Source of the DNA: Candidatus Eisenbacteria bacterium
Lineage (GTDB): Bacteria; Eisenbacteria; RBG-16-71-46; SZUA-252
Length of the DNA: 64,000 nucleotides
NCBI GenBank assembly: GCA_005893275.1
Contig: VBOW01000042.1
Span: forward strand, 1 to 64,000
Direction of reading: 5' to 3'
Made by a program: the position numbers and the translations under genes. The notes under the pieces are model-generated. The model ran no database searches, had not been told where the DNA came from, and worked only from the letters and a program-made list of their open reading frames with translations. This document shows positions 39,171-52,017 of this stretch, in pieces (positions within the stretch are counted from its first letter, which is position 1; the number at the start of each line of letters is the position of its first letter).

Positions 39171-39344
39171 GTTGTTTCGGTTCGCAGGGCGCGCATCGCG
39201 TACCGCCTGGCGAACAGGGGGTCCCGGACGGCTGCTAACAGGGCGCCATGCGGCCGCCCCGGGGCGCCCACCTTGCGGGTCACGCTACGGCGCCGCCGCG
39301 CCATCGCCATCGCTGGGGGCGCGCGGGGCCACGGGGGAAACCTC

Positions 39345-39986
39345 ATGCTCACGCCGCGCCAGTATGCGGCCTATGAATTCATCGCCGGATTCCTCGAGCG
39401 TTGGGGGTTCGCCCCATCCTACGAGGAGATCCGCCGCCATTTAGGGCTTCGATCGCTCAACGCGGTGGCGAAGCTGATCGCGCAGCTCCGCCGCCGGGGC
39501 GCTTTGGCTCCCTCTCCCTTGAATGCCAAGCGGAGCCTCACCCCTCTGGCGTGGGGAAGGGCGCGCTCGGGGCGCGTCGGCCGGCCCGTGCGAGGGGCGG
39601 AGCGCGCCGCCGCGACAATTCCGCTTCTCGGTGTGGTCGCAGCGGGAGAACCCATCGAGGCGATTGAGAACCCCGAGCCGGTCGAGGTGCCGCCATCCCT
39701 CCTGGGTCCCGGGGAGCGCTACGCGCTGCGTGTGCGCGGGGACTCGATGATCGAGGACGGAATCCACGACGGGGATCTCATCGTCGTGCGCCGCGCGCTC
39801 GAGGCGGACGACGGCCGCACCGTCGTCGCCGTCGTGGACGGCGAGGCTACGCTCAAGCGCTTCTACCGCCACGGCGCCCAGGTCGAGCTTCGCGCCGCGA
39901 ACGCCGCGCTTCGGCCGATGCAATTCCCGGCCTCGCGAGTCCAGATCCGCGGCATCCTGATCGGGCTCCTGCGCCGCTATTCCTGA
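39345..39986 (+). CDS. lexA: LexA-family SOS repressor
   Basis: This 213-residue repressor starts at an ATG with GGGGGA about 6-7 nt upstream. The N-terminal winged helix (LTPRQYAAYEFIAGFLERWG, then PSYEEIRRHLGL) binds DNA. The cleavage site Ala100-Gly101 (VVAAGEP) and the Ser134 (GDSMIEDG) and Lys171 (EATLKRFY) dyad are intact, so RecA-stimulated self-cleavage should work. It heads an imuB-dnaE2 cassette, which it probably represses. It may be a cassette-specific LexA rather than the genome's only one. Confidence 0.9.
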   Translation: MLTPRQYAAYEFIAGFLERWGFAPSYEEIRRHLGLRSLNAVAKLIAQLRRRGALAPSPLNAKRSLTPLAWGRARSGRVGRPVRGAERAAATIPLLGVVAAGEPIEAIENPEPVEVPPSLLGPGERYALRVRGDSMIEDGIHDGDLIVVRRALEADDGRTVVAVVDGEATLKRFYRHGAQVELRAANAALRPMQFPASRVQIRGILIGLLRRYS

Positions 39987-40009
39987 GGCAGCGGCCCGCC
40001 GTTCTTGCC

Positions 40010-41242
40010 ATGGAACGCACGATTCTCCACGTCGCGATCGACTCGTTTCCCATCCAAGCGGAGCGGCTCCGCTGCCCGAAGCTCGCGGGCCGCCCGCTCG
40101 CGCTCGTTCCGAGCGAGTCTCCGCGACCGCACGTCATCATGCCCTCGCGCGAGGCGTGCGAGGCGGGGGTCACGCGGGGGACGCCGCTCGTGCTGGCGCG
40201 GCGCCTGTGCCGGGATCTTGTCGCGCTCCCGATCGACCGCGCCTATTACGGCGGGATCGGGGAGTCGATCTTCGGGCGCCTGGCTCCATTCGCGCCCGTT
40301 GTCGAACCCGCGGGCGGACCGGGGAGCGGCTCGTCGGAAAGCGGCCGCTTCTTTCTCGACCTGACCGGGGTCGCGCGCACCCATTCCGAAGCGCGGGACC
40401 GCGCCGCGCGCGCAGGAAGCGACGTGGAATCCTCCTTCGGGCTCCATCCGACCCTCGGCGTGGCGGTGAACAAGCTCGTGAGCCGGGTCGCGGCACAAGT
40501 CGTGGCGCCCGACGGGGATCTCGTCGATGTTTCCGCCGGAAGCGAGGCATCGTTTCTGGCCCCGCTTTCCGTCCACATGCTCCCCGCGGCGCGGGGAGCC
40601 GAGGTGGCGCCACGGCTCGATCTTCTCAGCGTCCGCTTCGTCCGTGAGGTTCAGGCTCTCTCGCCTGCGCATCTGGCACGCGCGTTCGGCAAGGCCGGGC
40701 TTCTTCTCTGGAGGCAGGCGCGCGGCATGGACTCGACGCCCGTGCGGGCGCCCGCGTTTCGTCCTCACGTCACGGCCGAGGAGACGCTCGCGTGTGAGAC
40801 GAACGATCGCCGCGCGCTCGCCGCGCACGCGGCGCGGCTGGCGGCCGAGGTGGGCGCGGGGCTCCGGGCACGCGGCGAAGAGGCTCGGTGGCTCATGCTC
40901 GCGGTGGACTACGCGGACGGCCGGGGCGCCCGGGCGAGGCGGACCTTCGCGCGGCCGCCGCTCGGGAGCGCAGAGCTTCGCGCCGCGGTGGCGGAGCTGC
41001 TCGGGCGCGCTCTCACGCGGCGCGTGAGGGTGCGCAGGCTCAGGCTCGACGCCCGGGGGATCGCGCGCGGGGCGACGCAGCTCCCCCTGTGGGACGTCCA
41101 GCCTGAGGAGGGCCCGGGATCGCGCGCGGCGGCTCTCGAGTCGACGATCGACGGCGCACGCGAGCGTTTCGGAGCAGAGGCGCTCGTTCCCGCCGCTTGG
41201 ATGCTGCATGGCCTCACGATTCGCCCATCTGCACGTTCATAG
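40010..41242 (+). CDS. imuB: ImuB-like Y-family polymerase homologue, probably inactive
   Basis: This 410-residue protein is the scaffold of the mutasome with DnaE2. The Y-family fold is recognisable: first acidic residue Asp11 (HVAIDSF), SREACEAGVTRGTPL, and a thumb/little-finger order. In the block before FLDLTG, the catalytic Asp-Glu pair of active polymerases appears to be Gly-Arg (ESGRFFLDLTG). A beta-clamp motif QLPLW is at residues 357-361. A non-catalytic ImuB that binds the clamp and DnaE2 is the expected role. It starts 23 bp after lexA, and its 3' end overlaps dnaE2 by 35 nt. Confidence 0.82.
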   Translation: MERTILHVAIDSFPIQAERLRCPKLAGRPLALVPSESPRPHVIMPSREACEAGVTRGTPLVLARRLCRDLVALPIDRAYYGGIGESIFGRLAPFAPVVEPAGGPGSGSSESGRFFLDLTGVARTHSEARDRAARAGSDVESSFGLHPTLGVAVNKLVSRVAAQVVAPDGDLVDVSAGSEASFLAPLSVHMLPAARGAEVAPRLDLLSVRFVREVQALSPAHLARAFGKAGLLLWRQARGMDSTPVRAPAFRPHVTAEETLACETNDRRALAAHAARLAAEVGAGLRARGEEARWLMLAVDYADGRGARARRTFARPPLGSAELRAAVAELLGRALTRRVRVRRLRLDARGIARGATQLPLWDVQPEEGPGSRAAALESTIDGARERFGAEALVPAAWMLHGLTIRPSARS

Positions 41243-44219
41243 CCACTACTCGCTCATGCGAGGTGCCGACACGATCGAAGCGCTCGCCCAGGCGGCGCGC
41301 GGGCGCGGCATGGATCGCTTCGCGCTCACCGACACGAACGCGCTCTACGGTTTTGTCTTCTACCGGCAGATCTGCGAGGAGCGGGGCCTCAAGCCGATCG
41401 CGGGTGCCGAGGTCGTATCCGCGTCCGGGGCCACCCCCGATCGCGCGGGGGCGGCGCCCGATCGCGCGGTGCTTCTCGCGCGGGGCCGCGAGGGCTACCG
41501 CTCACTCTGCCGCGTCCTCACCGCGCGGCATCTCGATCCCGATTTCTCGCTCGCCCGGGCGGTCCGCGAGAACGCAGCATCGCTCCTGCTCCTGAGCGGG
41601 CAGCGCAGCCTTCTCTCGGTCTTGCGCGACGCGCTCCCGGTCTACGCGGAGCTCGTCCCGGGACGGGACGACCGCGGGCTCCTCCGCTGGGCCCGCGGCG
41701 AGGGGATCGCGTGCGTCGCGACGAACGACGTCCACTTCGTCCACCGCGAGGGACACCGCCTCCACCACACGCTCCGCGCGATCGCGCGGAACGCGACGCT
41801 CGACCGCGTCCCGCTCGACGACCTCGCCGAGCCCGATCGCACGTTCCTGAGCGCCGAGGAAATGGAGGAGCGGTTTCCCCACGCGCCCGAGGCGATCGAG
41901 AACGCGGGGCGGCTGGCCGAGGAATGCGCGGTCGATTGGTCGATGGGGCGGACCGTTTTCCCGTCCTATCCGCTCGAGCGGGGGGACGCCTTCGAGATCC
42001 TCCGCGCGCGCTGCGAGGCGGGGATCCTGCACCGATACGGGCGCGATCCGGACCCCGCGGTCCGCGCCCGCTTGGACCGAGAGCTCGCGGTCATCGGAGA
42101 CAAGGGTTTCGCGGACTACTTTCTCATCGTGGAAGCGATCACCTCACGCACGCCGCGGATCTGTGGGCGCGGATCGGGCGCCGCGAGCATCGTGGCCTAC
42201 CTCCTGGGCATCACGCACGTCGATCCCGTGCGCCACAACCTCTTCTTCGAGCGCTTCCTCTCGCCGGAGCGCAAGGACCCGCCCGACATCGACGTCGATT
42301 TCGCGTGGGACGAGCGCGATCAGATCCAGCTCGACGTCTTACAGGAAAATGGCGCGCCCGTGCGCGCGGCGATGGTCGCGAACCACGTCGGGTTCCGGTC
42401 GAGAGCCGCGATCCACGAAATCGCGAAGGTCTACGGCCTCCCGGAGGAGGAGATCCGCAACGTGACGAAGCGGCTCAAGCATTTCTGGGGGCTCGAGGAT
42501 CCGATCGAGCGCCTCGACGGCCACCCGCGATTCCGCGACGTGGACTTCGAGCCTCCCTGGCCCGAGATTCTCGCGCAGGCCATCGCGCTGGAGGGCCATC
42601 CGCGCCATCTCTCGGTGCACAGTGGGGGGATCGTGCTCGTGCCCGACTCGCTCGCCGACCACGTCCCGGTCGAGATCGCTCCCAAGGGAGTGCCGATCGT
42701 CCAATGGGAGAAAGACCAGGTCGAAGACTACGGCCTCGTGAAAATGGACCTCCTGGGGAACCGCTCGCTCGCGGTGATCCGCGACGCGCTCTTGGCCGTG
42801 GCCCGCAACACCGGGCGCGAGATCGACGAGCGGACGTGGAACCCGATCGACGATCCCGATACCCGGCGACTCGTCGCGGAGGGGGACACGCTCGGGTGCT
42901 TCTATGCGGAATCCCCCTCGATGCGCCAGCTTCAGCGAAAGGCGGGCGTCGGCGACTTCGACCACCTCGTCATCCATTCCTCCATCATCCGCCCCGCCGC
43001 GAACCGCTACATCCGGGAGTACGTGAGGCGGCTCCAAGGGGGCGCCTACGACCCGATCCATCCCGCGCTCCAGCATACGCTCGACGAGACCTACGGCATC
43101 ATGGTGTACCAGGAGGACGTGACCAAGGTCTCCATGGAGATGGCGGGGTTCACGCTCGCCCATGCGGAGGGGTTACGCAAGGCGCTCGGGCACAAGCGGC
43201 CCGTGAAGCCGCTCCGCGCCTATCAGGAGGAGTTCTTCGCGGGCGCTGCCGAGCGGGGCGTCGACCGGCCGGTGGTGGAACAGGTTTGGGAGATGATCCT
43301 GAGCTTCGCCGGCTATTCCTTTTGCAAGCCGCACAGCGCCTCCTACGCGCTCGTGTCGTTTCGCTCGGCGTGGCTCCGCGCGCACTTCCCTGCGGAGTTC
43401 ATGGCCGCGGTGATTTCGAATCAGGGTGGCTACTACTCCACGTTCGCCTACGTCTCCGAAGCACGCCGCATGGGCCTCCGCGTCCTTCCACCCGATGTGA
43501 ACGCGAGCGCGCGCGAGTACACCGGGAGGGGCCGCGAGCTTCGCGTGGGGCTGATGCAGCTCAAAGGATTCCATGCGGAGGCGGCTGGCGCGCTCCTCGG
43601 GGAGCGCGCGCGCGGAGGGCCGTTCGCCTCCTTCGCGGAGCTGAGACGCCGCGTCGCCCTGCACCTTTCGGATGCGGAGCTGCTTGTCAAATCGGGGGCG
43701 TGTGATTCGATCGGGGAGGGGAGGACGCGGCCGGAGCTTCTGTGGGAGCTTTACCTGGGATTGGGGGCGAACGGACGCCCCGGCGCCACGGGCGACCTCT
43801 TCGCGCCCGAGCCGGTGAATGCGCCCCACGCCCAGGCCTACGACCGGGCCACCGTACTCCGGCACGAGGTGGAGACCCTCGGCTTTCTGCTCAGCGCGCA
43901 CCCGCTCGAGCCCTTCGAGCGCGCCCTCAAGACCCGAGGCGTGATCCGCGCCTGCGACCTCTCCCGCCACGCCGGACAGCGCGTCCGGGTCGGAGGTTGG
44001 TTCGTCACATCGAAGCCCGTCCAGACCAAAGACCATGAGCCGATGGAGTTCCTCTCCTTCGAGGACACGACCGCGCTCTACGACGCGACCCTGTTCCCGG
44101 GCGCGTACCGGCGCTTCTGCCACCTGCTGACGGCCTCGCGTCCCTTCGTGCTGGAGGGGCGCGTAGAGGAGGACATGGGGGTGTGCACGCTCGTGGTGGA
44201 GGGGCTGGCGCGCCTCTGA
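41208..44219 (+). CDS. dnaE2: Error-prone DNA polymerase III alpha subunit
   Basis: This translesion polymerase of the C family acts with ImuB. The 1003-residue length fits DnaE2 rather than DnaE1 (about 1160). The PHP domain opens with HLHVHSHYSLMRGADTIE, and the palm aspartates are in DPPDIDVDFAWDERDQI near residue 360. Helix-hairpin-helix and OB-like regions follow (RVRVGGWFVTSKPVQTKDHEPMEF, typical of DnaE2 ends). The ATG lies within the end of imuB. The last gene of the cassette; no imuA is present. Confidence 0.92.
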   Translation: MASRFAHLHVHSHYSLMRGADTIEALAQAARGRGMDRFALTDTNALYGFVFYRQICEERGLKPIAGAEVVSASGATPDRAGAAPDRAVLLARGREGYRSLCRVLTARHLDPDFSLARAVRENAASLLLLSGQRSLLSVLRDALPVYAELVPGRDDRGLLRWARGEGIACVATNDVHFVHREGHRLHHTLRAIARNATLDRVPLDDLAEPDRTFLSAEEMEERFPHAPEAIENAGRLAEECAVDWSMGRTVFPSYPLERGDAFEILRARCEAGILHRYGRDPDPAVRARLDRELAVIGDKGFADYFLIVEAITSRTPRICGRGSGAASIVAYLLGITHVDPVRHNLFFERFLSPERKDPPDIDVDFAWDERDQIQLDVLQENGAPVRAAMVANHVGFRSRAAIHEIAKVYGLPEEEIRNVTKRLKHFWGLEDPIERLDGHPRFRDVDFEPPWPEILAQAIALEGHPRHLSVHSGGIVLVPDSLADHVPVEIAPKGVPIVQWEKDQVEDYGLVKMDLLGNRSLAVIRDALLAVARNTGREIDERTWNPIDDPDTRRLVAEGDTLGCFYAESPSMRQLQRKAGVGDFDHLVIHSSIIRPAANRYIREYVRRLQGGAYDPIHPALQHTLDETYGIMVYQEDVTKVSMEMAGFTLAHAEGLRKALGHKRPVKPLRAYQEEFFAGAAERGVDRPVVEQVWEMILSFAGYSFCKPHSASYALVSFRSAWLRAHFPAEFMAAVISNQGGYYSTFAYVSEARRMGLRVLPPDVNASAREYTGRGRELRVGLMQLKGFHAEAAGALLGERARGGPFASFAELRRRVALHLSDAELLVKSGACDSIGEGRTRPELLWELYLGLGANGRPGATGDLFAPEPVNAPHAQAYDRATVLRHEVETLGFLLSAHPLEPFERALKTRGVIRACDLSRHAGQRVRVGGWFVTSKPVQTKDHEPMEFLSFEDTTALYDATLFPGAYRRFCHLLTASRPFVLEGRVEEDMGVCTLVVEGLARL

Positions 44220-44223
44220 GATC

Positions 44224-44245
44224 GGTCAACCTTATTGGGTTGACC
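44224..44245. promoter_or_regulatory. Inverted repeat IR1 upstream of the SatD-like gene
   Basis: GGTCAACC (44224-44231), 6-nt spacer, GGTTGACC (44238-44245): a perfect 8-bp dyad. It starts 4 nt after the dnaE2 stop and shares its half-site with IR2, so it looks like one of a pair of operators. It could also act as a 3'-end hairpin for dnaE2, but no T-run follows. Confidence 0.6.
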
Positions 44246-44285
44246 TTCAATGAGTCAATCTATATTGGGATTGTAACCGCATAAG

Positions 44286-44313
44286 TTATTGTTGTTTATT
44301 GCATTAATAATAC
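44286..44313 (+). promoter_or_regulatory. Candidate promoter of the SatD-like operon
   Basis: TTATTG (44286-44291), 16-bp spacer, TAATAC (44308-44313), in an AT-rich strip of about 32% G+C. It lies between IR1 and IR2, so regulator binding at the repeats could control it. Confidence 0.4.
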
Positions 44314-44323
44314 AACAAAAAAA

Positions 44324-44346
44324 GGTTGACTACCAATAAGTCAACC
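44324..44346. promoter_or_regulatory. Inverted repeat IR2 at the SatD-like gene start
   Basis: GGTTGACT (44324-44331), 7-nt spacer, AGTCAACC (44339-44346), ending 4 nt before the ATG at 44351. It has the same GGTTGAC core as IR1. A degenerate half-site AGTCAATC lies at 44253-44260. Confidence 0.6.
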
Positions 44347-44350
44347 TATT

Positions 44351-45019
44351 ATGGTTGTACATATGCCGACTCTCTATGTAGGGGTCATTGGCGACATCGT
44401 TAGATCACGGCAGATCGCGCCGCACGCGCGGAGCGCTCTTCAGCGTCGAATAGGGCGAACTCTCCAGCAGATAAACAGCCACTTTGCCCTTTCGCTCGCG
44501 GCGAAGTTTCTGATAACGATCGGGGATGAGTTTCAAGGTCTCCTTCGAGACCCCGTCGCTATACCCGACCTCGTTCGGGAGCTGGAGATGAATCTACCGA
44601 ATACAAGTCTAAGGCTCGGAATTGGCCGGGGAGCTCTCTACACAGACCTTGGGGAGTACGCGATCGGCATGGATGGCCCCGCTTGGTATGCAGCGAGGGG
44701 AGCCCTGGAGGACGCGAGGGCCAGCCGCCGCTTTGGGGGTGTGTTCGTTGGCTTCGGCCCAAAAGAGGACCAGGTACTAAACGGTATGGCCCGAGTGCTC
44801 CACCACGTTCGCTCACGATTGACGATGAAGCAGCGTGAATTGCTCGAGGCATTGCTTCAGGATGAAACGCAAGCGGAGATCGCGACACGTGAAGGTATCA
44901 GTAAGCAGGCCGTGAGCAAGCGGGCTCGAGCCGGAGGCCTCGAAGCATACAGGGAGGCCGAGGCCGCCTGGAAGTTGGTCCTGGCTGCCACCAAGCAGCG
45001 TTCCCCCTCCCAGGAATGA
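44351..45019 (+). CDS. SatD-family protein with C-terminal helix-turn-helix
   Basis: This 222-residue protein has SatD-family blocks: YVGVIGDIVRS at the N-terminus (Asp15), TIGDEFQGLL (57-65), LRLGIGRGALYT (88-99) and IGMDGPAWYAARGAL (105-119). The C-terminus holds a helix-turn-helix (TQAEIATREGISKQAVSKRA, about 173-192). The first four blocks resemble, in order and spacing, the metal-Asp, GDxxxx, GIxxG and AAR elements of class III nucleotide cyclases; this resemblance is my inference. SatD is known from the sat (acid tolerance) operon of streptococci beside the membrane protein SatE. An alternative ATG lies at 44363. The codons look less G+C-rich than neighbours. Confidence 0.72.
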   Translation: MVVHMPTLYVGVIGDIVRSRQIAPHARSALQRRIGRTLQQINSHFALSLAAKFLITIGDEFQGLLRDPVAIPDLVRELEMNLPNTSLRLGIGRGALYTDLGEYAIGMDGPAWYAARGALEDARASRRFGGVFVGFGPKEDQVLNGMARVLHHVRSRLTMKQRELLEALLQDETQAEIATREGISKQAVSKRARAGGLEAYREAEAAWKLVLAATKQRSPSQE

Positions 45020-45840
45020 CTCCAGATCCGATCTGGCCGGCAGGCCCAACGGAGCTGACGCTTTGGGCGCAGCTCATTTCGGTATGGATCATCGCAAGCT
45101 ACGCTATCGCGCCGAACTGCGTGCCCGAGCGGGGGAGGATCGAGGGGCCAGCTCAAAAGATAGCCAAGTTGCTGGCCGCCAGCGCCTTCGCGGGCTGCCT
45201 CGGGTGGCTGCTCCCGCCTGCCGGAACAGATGCTCGTGCACGCGTGCTGCTTCTTGTCGCGTTTGCCGTTTTCGTTCTTGGCACAGGATTGATACGTCAA
45301 AGGCTGATGAGCGTTCGCGGCGGCGACGGCTTCCTGGCGGAGCTTGAGATAGGAGCCAACGTTGGTCTGCTAGCGGTCAGCGCCCTGGTTATCGGTTTCG
45401 GTGGGACCGGTTGGACAGCCACGGAAACCGTTGTGCAATCAGGCAAGGTCACGGCGATCGTTTGCGTAATCGCCGTGGTCGTGGCCGTTTTCAGGTTCGG
45501 TACATATGTTGTCCGCGGCGTCCTCAATAAGACCGGTGCAATCCCGCCGCGCGAACCCGAAGGTGGCTCGGGGTCCCTCCCGAGCACGACCGAGCTCAGC
45601 CGGGGGCGCAGCATTGGGAATTTGGAACGATTGCTGATGATCGTGGCGATCGTTGTCGGCCGTTATGAAGTGCTCGGATTCCTGGTTGCTGCCAAAGGTC
45701 TCATTCGTTCTCGTGAGTTTGAAAACAGAGCCTTCGCCGAGTACTTCATCTTGGGGACCCTCGCAAGCACAACCGTGGCGCTCGTGGTTGGGATCGCGCT
45801 CAGGGTAAGTGTCCGGTATTTCTGGGGCCTGGAAGGGTAG
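45016..45840 (+). CDS. Polytopic membrane protein paired with SatD
   Basis: This 274-residue protein starts at an ATG in an ATGA overlap with the SatD-like stop, with AGGA upstream. It has about six to seven hydrophobic spans. The C-terminal part (IGNLERLLMIVAIVVGRYEVLGFLV, then an Ala-Lys-Gly-Leu-Ile-Arg segment and AEYFILGTLASTTVAL) matches the end of membrane proteins that accompany SatD in other bacteria (DUF3307/SatE-like). The N-terminal half is not obviously DUF3307. No enzymatic motif is visible. Obligate pairing suggests a partner or effector for SatD. Confidence 0.65.
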   Translation: MTPDPIWPAGPTELTLWAQLISVWIIASYAIAPNCVPERGRIEGPAQKIAKLLAASAFAGCLGWLLPPAGTDARARVLLLVAFAVFVLGTGLIRQRLMSVRGGDGFLAELEIGANVGLLAVSALVIGFGGTGWTATETVVQSGKVTAIVCVIAVVVAVFRFGTYVVRGVLNKTGAIPPREPEGGSGSLPSTTELSRGRSIGNLERLLMIVAIVVGRYEVLGFLVAAKGLIRSREFENRAFAEYFILGTLASTTVALVVGIALRVSVRYFWGLEG

Positions 45841-45918: not shown

Positions 45919-47301
45919 CTACTTGCCCATGACCTTCCAAATTCGCTCCCACCAAGTCGCCGTTTCGTACGCCGTAGACCAATCCGCGGCGGCCCCCATT
46001 CGGTCGCGAACGTCGTCGATCCGAGCACCCGTGAGATCGCAGTAGTTTTCCGCTTCCTTCTTGCGGCGTCCCCAGACGGTTCGGTTGTATGCGGCCATCT
46101 GTGGGCACTCGTCGGTTCCTCGATACGGATGGTGGATCACGTAGCGCGCCTGCCAGTTTTCCCGGTCGGCGGTCACCTGAAACTGGAGATCTTCCGGGAA
46201 GTGCCCGGCGTCGTATCGCAGGTGGAGCCTCGTCAGGACCGCCTGCCCGGGATCCGGTGTGGTCGTCGAAATCCAAAACGCTCCCAGCGATCGTAGCTCC
46301 TCCGCGGTGAGATAAGGGGCGGTGCATGGATCGCATGAAGGGGCGTTCGGGGCGACGTTCCAGCAGTATTCGAGAAACACTGCCTTTCCGCCCTCACGCT
46401 CGTGCTGCTTATTGAAGAGCTTGCGGTAGAAGTCCGGAAAGTCGGGCTTCACGAACTCGGGCACGTCGCTTCCGGTCGGCAAACGGACCGTGCGGTAGTT
46501 GGTGGTCTCCATTCGTCCGGCTCGTGTGAGCGTGAACACGAACATCTCTTGCGATCCTTGCGCGTTCACCATCCCGAGGCGCAGCGGCAGCATGAGCTTC
46601 GGGGATTCGTACGCCACCTGGATGGGGCGCAGGTAGGTGTAGCCGAGCCGTTTCTGCTCTCCCAAGTCCACCTTGGCCACGAAGAAGAACATGCCCTGCC
46701 TGATGTAGCTCCGGAGGGCCCGTGAAGCGCCCTCCGGAATCTGATAGCCATTCTGATGCAACCAACGCTCGAGCGCGCGTCCCTCGTCGGCAGACAAGAT
46801 GAGGATGTCGTACTCGTCGACCTTGTAGCGGGCTTCAACCCGGACGTCGCCCAATGCATTCATAGCCATGACCTGCATCGTCGAGGAATCCTTCCTTCTG
46901 ATGAGAGACTGGGCCCCGCCTCTCATGCGCAGTTCCTCCGGACACGGATTCGGATCCCAGTACTCCACCAGCCTCGGCACGGAATACGCGTCCAGGTGAT
47001 CCACCCAGCCGTTCTCCCCCACGTGGACCTGCTCCTTCTTGAGCACGACCGGCACCGGGATGACCACCGCGAACTCCTTGGGATCCCCCTTGAAGTCGCT
47101 CGCCATGGTGAGGACGGTCCGGTTCCCGTCGCGCACGAGCACGACTTTGGACGATTGGTTGTAGAGCTTGGCATCGCCCTGGGCGACGTAGAAACCGCAG
47201 AAGGCGAGGGCGCCTGGAGCGGCGGCCAGGAGCGGCAGAAGAAGGAAGGGGACCCCGGCCAGGGTTGGGCGGATTCGATCCGCGAGATAGGTCCGATTCA
47301 T
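45919..47301 (-). CDS. Exported DUF2330-family protein (paralogue 1)
   Basis: It has 460 residues from an ATG at 47301 with GGAGG about 8-12 nt upstream; an earlier in-frame start at 47343 is less likely. A signal peptide (to about residue 34) ends before FCGFYVAQGDAKLYNQSSKVV, the opening block of DUF2330. VIPVPVVLKKEQVHVG, RLVEYWDPNPC, YDILILSADEGRALERWL and TNYRTVRLPTG follow. Several cysteines (including a CDPC pair) suggest disulfides in the periplasm. DUF2330 has no known function. It is highly similar along its length to the next gene, so the two arose by duplication. Confidence 0.8.
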   Translation of the reverse strand: MNRTYLADRIRPTLAGVPFLLLPLLAAAPGALAFCGFYVAQGDAKLYNQSSKVVLVRDGNRTVLTMASDFKGDPKEFAVVIPVPVVLKKEQVHVGENGWVDHLDAYSVPRLVEYWDPNPCPEELRMRGGAQSLIRRKDSSTMQVMAMNALGDVRVEARYKVDEYDILILSADEGRALERWLHQNGYQIPEGASRALRSYIRQGMFFFVAKVDLGEQKRLGYTYLRPIQVAYESPKLMLPLRLGMVNAQGSQEMFVFTLTRAGRMETTNYRTVRLPTGSDVPEFVKPDFPDFYRKLFNKQHEREGGKAVFLEYCWNVAPNAPSCDPCTAPYLTAEELRSLGAFWISTTTPDPGQAVLTRLHLRYDAGHFPEDLQFQVTADRENWQARYVIHHPYRGTDECPQMAAYNRTVWGRRKKEAENYCDLTGARIDDVRDRMGAAADWSTAYETATWWERIWKVMGK

Positions 47302-47333
47302 GACACGAGCCTCCGAAATCCAGCGGGTGGAGA

Positions 47334-47365
47334 GGGGGCTCAAGGGAGAGGGGGCTCAAGGGAGA
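47334..47365. repeat. Two perfect copies of a 16-bp tandem repeat
   Basis: GGGGGCTCAAGGGAGA occurs at 47334-47349 and 47350-47365, followed by a partial third unit (GGGGAGAGGGA). It lies in the 168-bp gap between the two DUF2330 genes. Apart from this I see no feature in the gap. Confidence 0.85.
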
Positions 47366-47469
47366 GGGGAGAGGGATGGGGAGGACTGCCGGCCGGCGCC
47401 GTGTGAGCGGAGTCGTCTGCGCCGACTCCCATCACGCTACACCCAGCGCCGGCCAAGTCCAATGTGAAA

Positions 47470-48819
47470 TCAGTTCTTCCACATCTGGTCCCACCAGGGG
47501 AACGGCTTGTCCGGATCATCGGACCAGCCCCCGCCCATCTTTCTCCGGATCGAAGCAATGTCCCACCCGGTGAGCGAGGCCAGGGTCTCGGCCTCCTTCA
47601 CGCGGCGCTCCCGGACGCTCCGGTGATACTCGCGGATGCCGGGGCAGGAGCCTTCCCCCTTCCACGGATGCCGAAGCACGTACCGCGCTTGGAAATTGCT
47701 CTGGTCGGATGTCTCCTGAAAGACCAGGTCCTCCGGGAAATGCCGCGCGTCGTACCGCACGTGAAGGCGGGTGATGAACGTGGTCTGGGGAACCGGCTGG
47801 GGCGGGTTCGAGCCGGACGCGGGCGAGGCGACCCAGAACGTCCCGAGGCTCCGCAGCTCGTCCGCGGAGAGCGGGTCCGCCGCGCAGGGATCACACCAGC
47901 TCATGTTCCAGGCGTACTCGAGGAACACGGCCTCACGATTTTCCTTCTCGACTTGCTGGGTGAACATCGCGCGATAGAAGCGCGGGAAGTCATCCTTCAC
48001 GTACTCCGGTATGTCCATGCCCTCGGGGAGCCGGACGGTGCGGTAGTTGGTCGTCTCGACGCGACCGTTCTTCGTGATCGCGAAGACGAAGAGCTCCTGC
48101 GGCCCATCCGCGTTCGCCATACCGAGCCTGAGCGGGAGCATGAACTTCGCCGATTCGTATGCGACCTGGATCGGGCGCAGGTAGGAGAAGCCCAGCCGCT
48201 TCTGTTCGCCCAGGTTCACCTTCGCGACGAAAAATTTCATGCCCTGGCGGAGGTAGCTCCCGAGGACGCGCCGGGCGCCGGGCGGGACGGAGTAGCCGTT
48301 CTCCAGGAGCCATGTCTCGAGCCCGCCGCTTTGCTTCGCGGAGAGGATCAAGATGTCGTATTCGCCGACCGTGTAGCGGGCTTCGATCCGGACTCCGAGC
48401 GATCGTTCGCGCGCGGAGTTCATCGCGTCGGCGGCCTTCCGCGCCATCCCCTGCGCCATGGGCGCGGACTCCAGCGCTTCGTACCGCATGCAAGGGTCTG
48501 GATCGAAATACTCGACCAGACGCGGGGCCGAGTAGGCGTCGAGGTGCTCCAGGACCGCCCGATCGCCCACGTGGATCTGACCCCGGGCAAGGACGGTCGG
48601 TACGGGAACCACGATCGCGAACTCCGACGGCTCCCCGCTGTAGTCGTTGGCCATGGTGAGCACGGTCCGATCTCCGTCCCGCACCATGACGACCTTTGAG
48701 GCGTGGTTGAAGAGCTTCGCGTTCCCCTGCGCGACATAGAAGCCGCAGAAACTATGCCCCGGTTGGGCCCAGAGCAGGGCGATCCAAAGCAGGCTGCCGG
48801 AGAGAAGAAGGCGCTTCAT
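47470..48819 (-). CDS. Exported DUF2330-family protein (paralogue 2)
   Basis: It has 449 residues from an ATG at 48819 with AAGGAG 6 nt upstream. A signal peptide covers residues 1-22, then FCGFYVAQGNAKLFNHASKVV, VVPVPTVLARGQIHVG, RLVEYFDPDPC, YDILILSAKQSGGLETWL and TNYRTVRLPEG. Nearly every block has a counterpart in the gene at 45919. The gene start lies inside the last 68 nt of the RnfD-like gene on the same strand, an unusually long overlap that suggests coupled expression. Confidence 0.8.
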   Translation of the reverse strand: MKRLLLSGSLLWIALLWAQPGHSFCGFYVAQGNAKLFNHASKVVMVRDGDRTVLTMANDYSGEPSEFAIVVPVPTVLARGQIHVGDRAVLEHLDAYSAPRLVEYFDPDPCMRYEALESAPMAQGMARKAADAMNSARERSLGVRIEARYTVGEYDILILSAKQSGGLETWLLENGYSVPPGARRVLGSYLRQGMKFFVAKVNLGEQKRLGFSYLRPIQVAYESAKFMLPLRLGMANADGPQELFVFAITKNGRVETTNYRTVRLPEGMDIPEYVKDDFPRFYRAMFTQQVEKENREAVFLEYAWNMSWCDPCAADPLSADELRSLGTFWVASPASGSNPPQPVPQTTFITRLHVRYDARHFPEDLVFQETSDQSNFQARYVLRHPWKGEGSCPGIREYHRSVRERRVKEAETLASLTGWDIASIRRKMGGGWSDDPDKPFPWWDQMWKN

Positions 48820-49657
48820 CGAGTACTCCTTCGGGTTGGGGTTTCGAACGCACACGATTCCATTCGTATCGTGGTCCGGGCAAGAGCCGATCGATGAGAG
48901 GCACGGCCATCGACCAGAGCGCGAGGGACCACAGGATTCCATTCGTGCGGTACAGGCCGAACTGGATGAAGCCGGCGAAGGCCGTGACGAGAACCGCGAA
49001 GAGGATCCTCCCGGCGCGCGAGTTCGGCGTGGTCTTGGGATCGGAGATCATGAAGAAGGCGAAGAGGAGCAGCGCCCCGCTCTCCAGCCGATGGATGGGC
49101 ACCTCCCACCGCTGCATGGCCCAGAACGCGCGGCCGAACTGGAGGGCCGCGAAGGAAATCAGAAACGCGTACGTCACGTCGCTGCGGGCGGCCCGGTTCA
49201 CGACGAGGCCGCCGAGACAGGCCATCAGAAATCCAAAGTAGGCGACGCTGCCCCACTGCCCCGGTGAAACCCAGATGGGTGCGCCCAGGAGCATCAGGAA
49301 CACGAGCCCGATATTCGTCGGGTTGAAGATGTGCTTGCCCTTCCATCGGACCAGGAACTTGCTCGCGATCGTCACGACGGCGGCCAGGATGGCCAGCGCC
49401 GCGAAGTTCGTGCGCAGGAGGAGGCAAAGCGAGAGCCCCGAGATGAGGGCGCTCTTGGGGTCGAACTTCGGGAGCCGCCAGAGCTTGGTGCACACGTACT
49501 GTGTCAGGAGGGCGGTCGAAAGGAGGAGGGCGGCGCGGCCGGGCGTGATGTCGAAATGGAGCCAGCCCAGGCCGTAAATCAAGAGGCCGGACAGGACGGT
49601 GATCTGGTAAATCCTTGGATCGAGGGGGGGCCTGGGTCTTGAGGAATCAGCACGCAT
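48752..49657 (-). CDS. RnfD/NqrB-like integral membrane protein
   Basis: It has 301 residues from an ATG at 49657 with AGGAGAGG 4 nt upstream. There are about eight hydrophobic spans and the family blocks DPRIYQITVLSGLL, FDPKSALISGLSLCLLLRT, KHIFNPTNIGLVFLMLLG, WVSPGQWGS and FFMISDPKTTPNSRAGRI. These resemble subunit D of Rnf/Nqr complexes and UnbU-type proteins. No other rnf or nqr gene is present, so a stand-alone membrane protein is likely, with unknown electron or flavin role. The Ser-Asp-Pro-Lys-Thr-Thr-Pro region corresponds to the conserved, flavin-proximal segment of the family. Confidence 0.72.
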   Translation of the reverse strand: MRADSSRPRPPLDPRIYQITVLSGLLIYGLGWLHFDITPGRAALLLSTALLTQYVCTKLWRLPKFDPKSALISGLSLCLLLRTNFAALAILAAVVTIASKFLVRWKGKHIFNPTNIGLVFLMLLGAPIWVSPGQWGSVAYFGFLMACLGGLVVNRAARSDVTYAFLISFAALQFGRAFWAMQRWEVPIHRLESGALLLFAFFMISDPKTTPNSRAGRILFAVLVTAFAGFIQFGLYRTNGILWSLALWSMAVPLIDRLLPGPRYEWNRVRSKPQPEGVLDEAPSSLRQPALDRPALGPTGA

Positions 49658-49814
49658 GGTGCCTCTCCTACGCCCGGCCCGGCGGGTGTATTCCAAGGAT
49701 CCTACTTGGCCGGCGTTGACCGCAAGGGCAAATTCGGGGAGACTCGCCGCGTGGCACCGGTTAGGAGCTACCCTGACCTGGCTCGGCACCCAACCGATCA
49801 GCCGAGGAGAAGAG

Positions 49815-50933
49815 ATGAGTCACCTCCACATTCCACGGACGGCCGGATCCCGGATCGGAGCGAGCCTCGCCGTGCTCGTTTGGCTCGGCGTTTCGGGCGC
49901 CTCGCCTGCCACCGCCGCATCGGATCGCGGCACCTTCTCGATCGTCGCCTACGACTCGGTTACGCAGGAGATGGGCGTCGCGGTTCAGTCCAAGTACTTC
50001 AGCGTTGGGACCGATGTTCCATGGGCCGAGGCGGGCGTCGGGGCTGTCGCGACGCAGGCGCGCGTCGATCCTTCCTTCGGGCTCAAGGCGCTCGGTCTCC
50101 TCCGTACCGGTTTGAGAGCGGCGGATGTGCTGCGCGCCCTGGCCGCGACCGACTCGGTGTGGGATTCGCGCCAGCTCGGAATTGTGGATGCGCGCGGGGG
50201 CGTCGCGAACTGGACGGGGAGCAAGTGCCTCGACTGGGCGGGCGGCGAGGCGGGCGCCGATTTCGTCTGCCAGGGAAATATCCTGGCCGGCCCGGCGGTC
50301 GTGTCCGGGATGGCGAAAGCGTACCGCGAGAGCAAGGGGGAGATGGCGGAGCGCCTCCTCGCGGCGCTCGATGCGGCGCAGGCCGCGGGGGGCGACAAGC
50401 GGGGCATGCAGTCCGCGGCGCTCCTCGTGGTTCGCCCGAACGCGACGCGGCCTCAGTTCACGCAGCGATACATCGATCTTCGCGTGGAGGACCACAAGAC
50501 CCCCATCAAGGAGCTGAGGCGCCTGCTCGAGATCCAGGAGGGGTTCCACGGCGCGGACAACCACCTCTTCTACGCCGACCAGTACGAGGCCGCGGGACGC
50601 GCGGACCTGGCGACGCGCGAACGCGAGCGCGTGGCGGAGACCCTGCGCCGCGCCCTCGGACGGGGGGAGCGGGATGCCTCGATGCTGAACGGGCTCGCCT
50701 GGGCCTGCGCGACCCACGATCTTTATCTCGAGGACGCGCTCAAGGCCGCCGAGCGTGCCGCGTCGCTCGAGCCCAGGAACGTGGACATCCTGGACACGCT
50801 CGCGGAGGTCTATTTCCGTCACGGAAACCCGGCGAAGGCGATCGAGGTCGAATCCCGGGCCGCCTCGATCGACCCGAAGAGCCAGTATCTGAAAGACCAG
50901 ATCGAGCGCTTCCGCAGGGGCGGCGGAGGATAG
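49815..50933 (+). CDS. Exported DUF1028 protein with C-terminal TPR-like tail
   Basis: It has 372 residues from an ATG at 49815 with GAGGAGAAG just upstream; an in-frame ATG at 49656 lies inside the divergent gene's start and is rejected. A signal peptide covers about residues 10-35, then GTFSIVAYDSVTQEMGVAVQSKYFSVG, WAEAGVGAVATQARVD, GIVDARGGVANWTG and QSAALLVVRP. The tail (about 260-372) includes TPR-like helices (LNGLAWACATHDLYLEDALKAAERAASLEP, DILDTLAEVYFRHGNPAKAIE). The domain has an Ntn-hydrolase-like fold with unknown substrate. It forms a tandem pair with the next gene. Confidence 0.82.
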   Translation: MSHLHIPRTAGSRIGASLAVLVWLGVSGASPATAASDRGTFSIVAYDSVTQEMGVAVQSKYFSVGTDVPWAEAGVGAVATQARVDPSFGLKALGLLRTGLRAADVLRALAATDSVWDSRQLGIVDARGGVANWTGSKCLDWAGGEAGADFVCQGNILAGPAVVSGMAKAYRESKGEMAERLLAALDAAQAAGGDKRGMQSAALLVVRPNATRPQFTQRYIDLRVEDHKTPIKELRRLLEIQEGFHGADNHLFYADQYEAAGRADLATRERERVAETLRRALGRGERDASMLNGLAWACATHDLYLEDALKAAERAASLEPRNVDILDTLAEVYFRHGNPAKAIEVESRAASIDPKSQYLKDQIERFRRGGGG

Positions 50934-50940
50934 GCTCCCC

Positions 50941-52017
50941 ATGAGCGCTCGAGCCTTCCCTGTCATCGCGATGGTGGCGGCCGCCGCGCTCGCGGCGTGC
51001 GCCCATCCGGCCTGGGCCACCTTTTCCATCGTCGCGTACGACTCGGTCACGCAGGAGCTGGGCGTCGCGGTCCAATCGCGGGCGTTCAGCGTGGGGATGG
51101 CCGTTCCCTGGGCCGAGGCGGGCGTGGGCGCGATTGCCACCCAGGCCTCGACCAACGAGTCCTTCGGCCCGATGGGGCTCACGCTTCTCCGCGCGGGGAA
51201 ACCGGCTCCGGAGGCGATGCGCACACTGCTCGCCGCCGATTCCGGGAGCGCGCACCGGCAGATCGGAATCGTGGACGCCCGGGGCAGGAGCGCCAATTTC
51301 ACCGGGAAGCTTTGCTCCGATTGGGCGGGAGGCATCACCGGGCCGGGCTATGCGATCCAAGGGAACATCCTGGCGGGGGAGGCCGTTGTACAGGGGATGC
51401 AGCGGGCGTATCTCGGGACCCAGGGGGAGCTGGCGGAGCGGCTCCTGGCCGCGCTCCAGGCGGCGCAGGCCGCGGGGGGCGACCGCCGGGGCATGGAATC
51501 CGCGGCGCTCGTCGTCGTGCGGCCGAGCGACCAGTATCCGGAATACCGGACGCGCTACGTGGACCTGCGCGTCGAGGATCACAGGGACCCCATCAACGAG
51601 CTGATCCGCGTCTATCGCCTCCTCGAGGGGCAGCGGCTCGCCGAGGCCCACATTCGCTACGCCGAGGCCTACGACAAGGCCGGCCGCGCGGATCTCGCGC
51701 GGGTCGAGCGGGACCGGGTCGCCGAGTCGCTCGCGCACGCGCTGGCGCGGAAGGACGTGGATGCCTCCACGCTGAACGGGCTCGCCTGGATCTGCGCCAC
51801 GAACAACGTGCACCTCGTCGAGGCGCTTCAGGCCGCCGAACGCGCCGCCGCGCTCGAGCCGAAGAGCGCTGAGATACTCGACACGCTCGCCGAGGTCCAC
51901 TACCGTAGCGGGAACGCCGCCAAGGCGATCGAAGTGGAAAGCCGGGCGCTTTCCTACGCGCCCAACGATCAATATTTGAAAGAGCAAATCAACCGGTTCA
52001 AGAACGGAAGCAAATAG
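50941..52017 (+). CDS. Exported DUF1028 protein with TPR-like tail (tandem copy)
   Basis: This 358-residue protein starts at an ATG 7 bp after the previous DUF1028 gene. The signal segment contains LAAC, which could be a lipobox, but signal peptidase I cleavage before TFSIVAYDS is also possible. Core and tail parallel the previous gene almost block for block (AYDSVTQELGVAVQSRAFSVG; GIVDARGRSANFTG; LNGLAWICATNNVHLVEALQAAERAAALEP). It arose by tandem duplication. The shared tail with TPR-like repeats distinguishes this pair from the copy at 11725. Confidence 0.82.
   Translation: MSARAFPVIAMVAAAALAACAHPAWATFSIVAYDSVTQELGVAVQSRAFSVGMAVPWAEAGVGAIATQASTNESFGPMGLTLLRAGKPAPEAMRTLLAADSGSAHRQIGIVDARGRSANFTGKLCSDWAGGITGPGYAIQGNILAGEAVVQGMQRAYLGTQGELAERLLAALQAAQAAGGDRRGMESAALVVVRPSDQYPEYRTRYVDLRVEDHRDPINELIRVYRLLEGQRLAEAHIRYAEAYDKAGRADLARVERDRVAESLAHALARKDVDASTLNGLAWICATNNVHLVEALQAAERAAALEPKSAEILDTLAEVHYRSGNAAKAIEVESRALSYAPNDQYLKEQINRFKNGSK

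Follow-up and report, generated by a model that had tools for sequence, protein, structure and literature searches.

A putative SatD operator made of phased half-sites upstream of a satD-membrane protein gene pair in Candidatus Eisenbacteria

The AT-rich strip between dnaE2 and satD in the window (the whole 64,000-nucleotide stretch of contig VBOW01000042.1 analysed here) is probably the autoregulatory operator of a two-gene operon encoding SatD and a membrane protein. The half-site array, its phasing, its co-variation with the SatD recognition helix, the predicted fold and the gene pair were all computed directly; occupancy by SatD dimers, their cooperativity, repression, a nucleotide ligand and the role of the membrane protein are what we infer.

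The AT-rich strip contains a repeated half-site block

The strip lies between dnaE2, which ends at 44219, and satD. The G+C content of positions 44220-44350 is 32.8% compared to 65.9% for the whole window, and no 130-bp stretch of the window is lower than this (0.328). The initial annotation had put the drop at about 32%, in agreement with this value, and its proviso that such a composition might simply be usual for intergenic DNA does not hold, as the other intergenic gaps of the window have a G+C content of 0.56-0.83. Both of the dyads it described were read directly in the sequence, GGTCAACC-N6-GGTTGACC at 44224-44245 and GGTTGACT-N7-AGTCAACC at 44324-44346, and the degenerate AGTCAATC was found between them. 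These elements are parts of a larger arrangement in which the strip consists of two copies of one block of four half-sites, offset by 86 bp. The half-sites are GGTTGAC or GGTTGTA and degenerate forms of these in alternating orientation, and those at 44269, 44311 and 44353 had been overlooked. The features of the strip and of the two genes that follow it are:

44225..44275, plus strand: candidate operator block A, with its first half-site starting 5 bp past the dnaE2 stop codon
44225, minus strand: block A half-site 1, GTCAACC
44238, plus strand: block A half-site 2, GGTTGAC
44254, minus strand: block A half-site 3, GTCAATC
44269, plus strand: block A half-site 4, GATTGTA
44276..44310, no strand: AT-rich spacer separating blocks A and B
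44311..44359, plus strand: candidate operator block B, overlapping the candidate satD start codon at 44351
44311, minus strand: block B half-site 1, TACAACA
44324, plus strand: block B half-site 2, GGTTGAC
44340, minus strand: block B half-site 3, GTCAACC
44353, plus strand: block B half-site 4, GGTTGTA
44351..45019, plus strand: satD (PF16264, E=1.5e-31), with a predicted palm/nucleotidyl-cyclase-fold N-terminal domain and a C-terminal helix-turn-helix (HTH)
45016..45840, plus strand: gene of the partner membrane protein, overlapping satD by 4 bp

In both blocks the half-sites follow each other in steps of approximately 13 and 16 bp with alternating orientation. Three of the four same-orientation pairs (block A half-sites 1-3, block B half-sites 1-3 and 2-4) have a distance of 29 bp, and the remaining pair has one of 31 bp. 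Block B as a whole is quasi-palindromic, with two 21-nt arms that are 86% complementary and flank a 7-nt centre. The strip contains four perfect 7+7 inverted repeats (spacer 4-10) where 0.15 were expected, a count reached in 9 of 5000 dinucleotide shuffles; for 8+8 arms the corresponding figure was 7 of 5000. A search of the 2.88-Mb genome for the exact dyad gave a single occurrence, in this strip, and allowing one mismatch added no more than the second dyad of the strip. As would be expected of autoregulation, the sites are found upstream of satD itself and nowhere else in the genome.

A promoter had also been placed between the dyads, but it is at best a candidate, since the matches in consensus scans agreed at only 9 of 12 positions and none of them lay between the dyads on the plus strand. 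Inspection of the sequence revealed no obvious ribosome-binding site at either satD start, 44351 or the alternative ATG at 44363. On the minus strand the second dyad (44347-44323) reads as a terminator-like hairpin followed by TTTTTT; no obvious minus-strand gene reads into this hairpin.

Phased arrays upstream of satD across the family

Relatives of SatD were retrieved by searching with an alignment of closer SatD members; a search with the SatD sequence of the window alone returned no relatives. The family sample comprised 80 of at least 543 relatives from bacterial and archaeal genomes, together with several from plasmids and from the phylum of the window itself. Phage records and viral contigs yielded none.

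Perfect 7+7 inverted repeats (spacer 5-9) were present in 63% of 87 SatD upstream regions compared to 13% of 537 other upstream regions from the same loci, and two or more such repeats in 49% and 7%, respectively. An identical half-site 6-mer was repeated in the same orientation at exactly 29 bp in 45 of 83 SatD upstream regions (54%), drawn from many phyla of bacteria and archaea, and in 31 of 511 controls (6%; Fisher 1.3e-24). At other distances the recurrence in SatD upstream regions was 24% (28 bp) and 2% (31 bp), with a second same-orientation peak at 57-58 bp, and recurrence in the opposite orientation was seen at 12-17 and 41-45 bp. By the medians of 50 loci, the array extends from about -120 to -36 relative to the start of the gene. 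Exact recurrence at 28-30 bp was absent from 24 of the 83 regions (about 29%) of this first set. In a set fetched later, 28/29-bp phasing was seen in 12 of 19 regions, and recurrence at adjacent distances in 2 of 19 and 0 of 19, once a divergent archaeal clade (L133-L142, L144, L145, L147-L155) had been set apart post hoc, after inspection; in that clade the phasing was seen in only 5 of 21. Several members of the clade have apparent extra residues in the HTH region. In Streptococcus macacae (L042) a stretch with the promoter-like TATAATAGACATT is repeated at 29 bp upstream of satD.

The expectation that GGTTGAC dyads would precede SatD orthologues was therefore borne out for the architecture, which is conserved, but not for the exact sequence: GGTTGA/GGTTGT is kept only in gammaproteobacterial, one fusobacterial and some haloarchaeal SatD upstream regions. 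A Pfam scan of the neighbours of satD gave no recurrent context, the commonest family being present at 4 of 91 loci. A consistent defence context was considered and rejected, as the matches among the neighbours were scattered (helicase-, TnpB- and restriction-like).

Half-site sequence and the SatD recognition helix

Judged from the sequences compared, the half-site varies with the SatD recognition helix rather than with taxonomy. Helices of the form S..SE[SA]L occur with the half-site GTTCGC/TTCGGC, SEATVSK with CTTAGC/TTAGCC, AVYKN and QAVSK with GGTTGA/GGTTGT, the clostridial STVQK with GAATAA/TATAGC, and STVARRL with GCATAA. Within Eisenbacteria alone there are three SatD helix types, where SPSVISES is paired with TTCGGC, SEATVSK with CTTAGC and SKQAVSK with GGTTGAC. 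Haloarchaea with an SKSTVSES helix have GTTCGCC, and Natronosalvus with RQQAVSK has GGTTGTA.

These helix groups were defined post hoc, when both the helix and half-site columns had already been seen, and the later-fetched set was therefore used as a test. All four independent members of that set which belong to the predefined helix groups have the predicted half-site, in a test that is small and in which one helix pattern was widened by a final L/I needed by one of the four matching members. The partial correlation between helix identity and half-site similarity, with N-domain identity and GC controlled, was 0.129 (0 of 500 permutations); for pairs with N-domain identity below 40% it was not significant (57 of 500 permutations). 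The earlier suggestion that the C-terminal HTH of SatD may be an autoregulator is well supported by the 29-bp-phased arrays before satD in many phyla and from this co-variation of half-site and helix.

The co-variation also bears on two other explanations of the repeats. According to the first, the inverted repeats would be RNA hairpins (a dnaE2 terminator, or a satD attenuator or riboregulator) and not protein-binding DNA. The transcript does fold better than shuffled sequences (z -4.45), there is the T run behind the minus-strand hairpin noted above, and Rfam gave a weak match of 25.7 bits against a gathering score of 50. However, that sole match is under the curated score, the first dyad has no T run after it on the plus strand, and hairpins leave unexplained both the direct 29-bp recurrence and the co-variation with the SatD helix, so we regard this explanation as improbable. 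The identity of the Rfam match, STnc390, was rejected as its score is below the curated cut-off and the match is accounted for by the inverted repeat.

We consider it equally improbable that the binder is not SatD but a different regulator encoded in the genome, such as one of envelope stress or of the SOS response. SatD as the binder is something that we infer from sequence, and the operon adjoins a lexA-Y-family polymerase-dnaE2 cassette. Against such a regulator, the dyad is absent elsewhere in the genome, the same architecture precedes satD in unrelated genomes with different neighbours, and the half-site tracks the SatD helix.

SatD and its membrane partner

The SatD protein of the window is a full-length member of PF16264 (110.1 bits, cut-off 29), covering profile positions 1-209 of 211. 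The AlphaFold2 model (pLDDT 95.6, pTM 0.90) places the three helices of the C-terminal HTH at residues 159-169, 174-181 and 185-194, and the HTH region gave weak matches to HTH models, sigma-70 region 4 among them. When the model was compared to the PDB with Foldseek, the nearest structures were class III guanylate/adenylyl cyclases, Cas10-type Cmr2 and GGDEF domains (E 1.6e-4 to 1e-3, probability 0.98-1.00), with moderate target TM scores of about 0.4-0.56. Against viral structures the top matches were mainly GGDEF/cyclase-like proteins. We predict with high confidence that the N-terminal domain has a palm/class III nucleotidyl-cyclase fold joined to an HTH.

Across 74 SatD sequences three residues never vary, namely D15 (in a GDI motif), D59 (in a GDEFQ motif) and R116. 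In a profile comparison (hhalign) the two Asp motifs align with those of cyclases, with E 0.002 and a probability of only 13%. Four residues ahead of the conserved Arg, at the usual position of the catalytic Asn, the members inspected have an aromatic residue (Trp in the window protein), so that catalysis is not implied for SatD. The PADLOC matches to SatD were weak and lay in the HTH region.

The partner is a multi-helix membrane protein which matches no Pfam model and whose structural model has no fold match in the PDB. It carries the C-terminal motif GxLER...AAKxxxR...FAEYxLxGTLxS of DUF3307-containing SatD partners. A membrane partner is present in most SatD relatives with available downstream sequence, and 39 of 48 aligned partners match DUF3307 (PF11750). 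The gene pair is best read as a two-gene nucleotide-sensing/membrane module.

Proposed mechanism

Using its C-terminal HTH, SatD would bind as a dimer to each dyad, a pair of 7-bp half-sites. With adjacent dyads 29 bp apart and the block duplicated, several dimers could sit side by side and bind cooperatively, and they may also bridge blocks A and B across 86 bp. Occupancy by SatD would most likely repress the operon, because block B extends into the satD start. The palm/cyclase-like domain would most likely sense, or make, a nucleotide, because it has a predicted palm/class III cyclase/GGDEF fold in which both metal-binding Asp positions are invariant. Such a nucleotide would loosen the array, and SatD and its multi-helix membrane partner would then be expressed.

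A bolder proposal, which we hold tentatively and think unlikely as a whole, is that SatD is a DNA-bound nucleotide cyclase or sensor whose palm-fold dimers are ranged in a 29-bp-phased array on the satD promoter, so that a change in nucleotide dissolves the array and turns on the membrane effector. If true, DNA-bound SatD would be a new one-component nucleotide-signalling switch with a spread over bacteria and archaea, and it might serve in the response to stress or phage.

Comparison with known systems

The mentions of SatD in the open literature searched, which need not be the whole literature, are confined to lists of genes and tables of annotations, where it is entered as a protein of DNA binding or acid tolerance (PMC12005413, PMC5786311, PMC10210942). 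We found no description there of a SatD operator, fold or ligand, and no paper joining SatD with "nucleotidyl cyclase".

The window SatD resembles most of its relatives in PF16264 in having a C-terminal HTH and being followed by a membrane protein gene. Its partner shares the C-terminal motif described above with DUF3307-containing partners but does not reach the Pfam model (PF11750). The predicted fold and the order of the metal-binding Asp motifs are those of class III cyclase, GGDEF and Cas10 palm domains, from which SatD differs by the fusion of this domain to an HTH; in addition, at the position four residues ahead of the conserved Arg, typical class III cyclases have Asn and not an aromatic residue. 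In layout, though not in family, the closest counterpart is the Panoptes optSE antiphage operon (PMC12657218), which likewise has two genes for a palm-fold protein and a transmembrane protein. In contrast to SatD, OptS is described in that paper with no mention of an HTH, and OptE belongs to the S-2TMbeta proteins, where the SatD partner is a helical DUF3307-type protein lacking a PDB fold match. The satD-partner pair is not an mCpol synthase with an S-2TMbeta effector, and the loci around satD showed no consistent defence context.

SatD is an uncharacterised family spread across several bacterial phyla and archaea. The phased array and helix-dependent half-site offer a ready DNA target and a predicted specificity code, in addition to a predicted nucleotide-type sensor domain, and SatD binding, ligand and function are therefore directly testable. 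A constant 29-bp spacing with changing site sequence also provides an unusually clean natural series for the evolution of HTH recognition.

Origin and surroundings of the module

The composition of the strip had been taken to suggest recent acquisition. Of 47 genomes of the phylum, 4 encode SatD, as does 1 of the 4 from the genus, and in a congener dnaE2 and DUF2330 meet at the same junction with the module absent; such a distribution is compatible with gain by transfer or with loss in the other genomes. The GC3 values of satD (0.64) and the partner (0.68) are also below those of most genes of the window. However, SatD upstream regions in GC-rich genomes average 0.50 GC compared to 0.64 for controls, and the AT-rich strip is for this reason no evidence of foreign origin. 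Low GC upstream is a trait of the family, and composition alone was rejected as proof of recent acquisition, while the congener and GC3 values give the original suggestion partial support. The same two observations would favour the view that the strip is no more than foreign DNA rich in A+T, or intergenic sequence of the ordinary kind, in which palindromes arose by chance. We think this very improbable given that the strip has more palindromes than shuffled sequences, that G+C is high in the remaining intergenic gaps of the window and that the layout is kept from phylum to phylum, and the comparative data contradict it.

Directly upstream of the satD module, positions 39273-44219 hold genes for a lexA-like repressor, a Y-family (ImuB-like) polymerase and dnaE2, a cassette of the SOS mutasome type. 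Two tandem DUF2330 genes lie on the minus strand at 45919-48942, and two tandem DUF1028 genes with TPR-like C-termini are found at 49656-52017.
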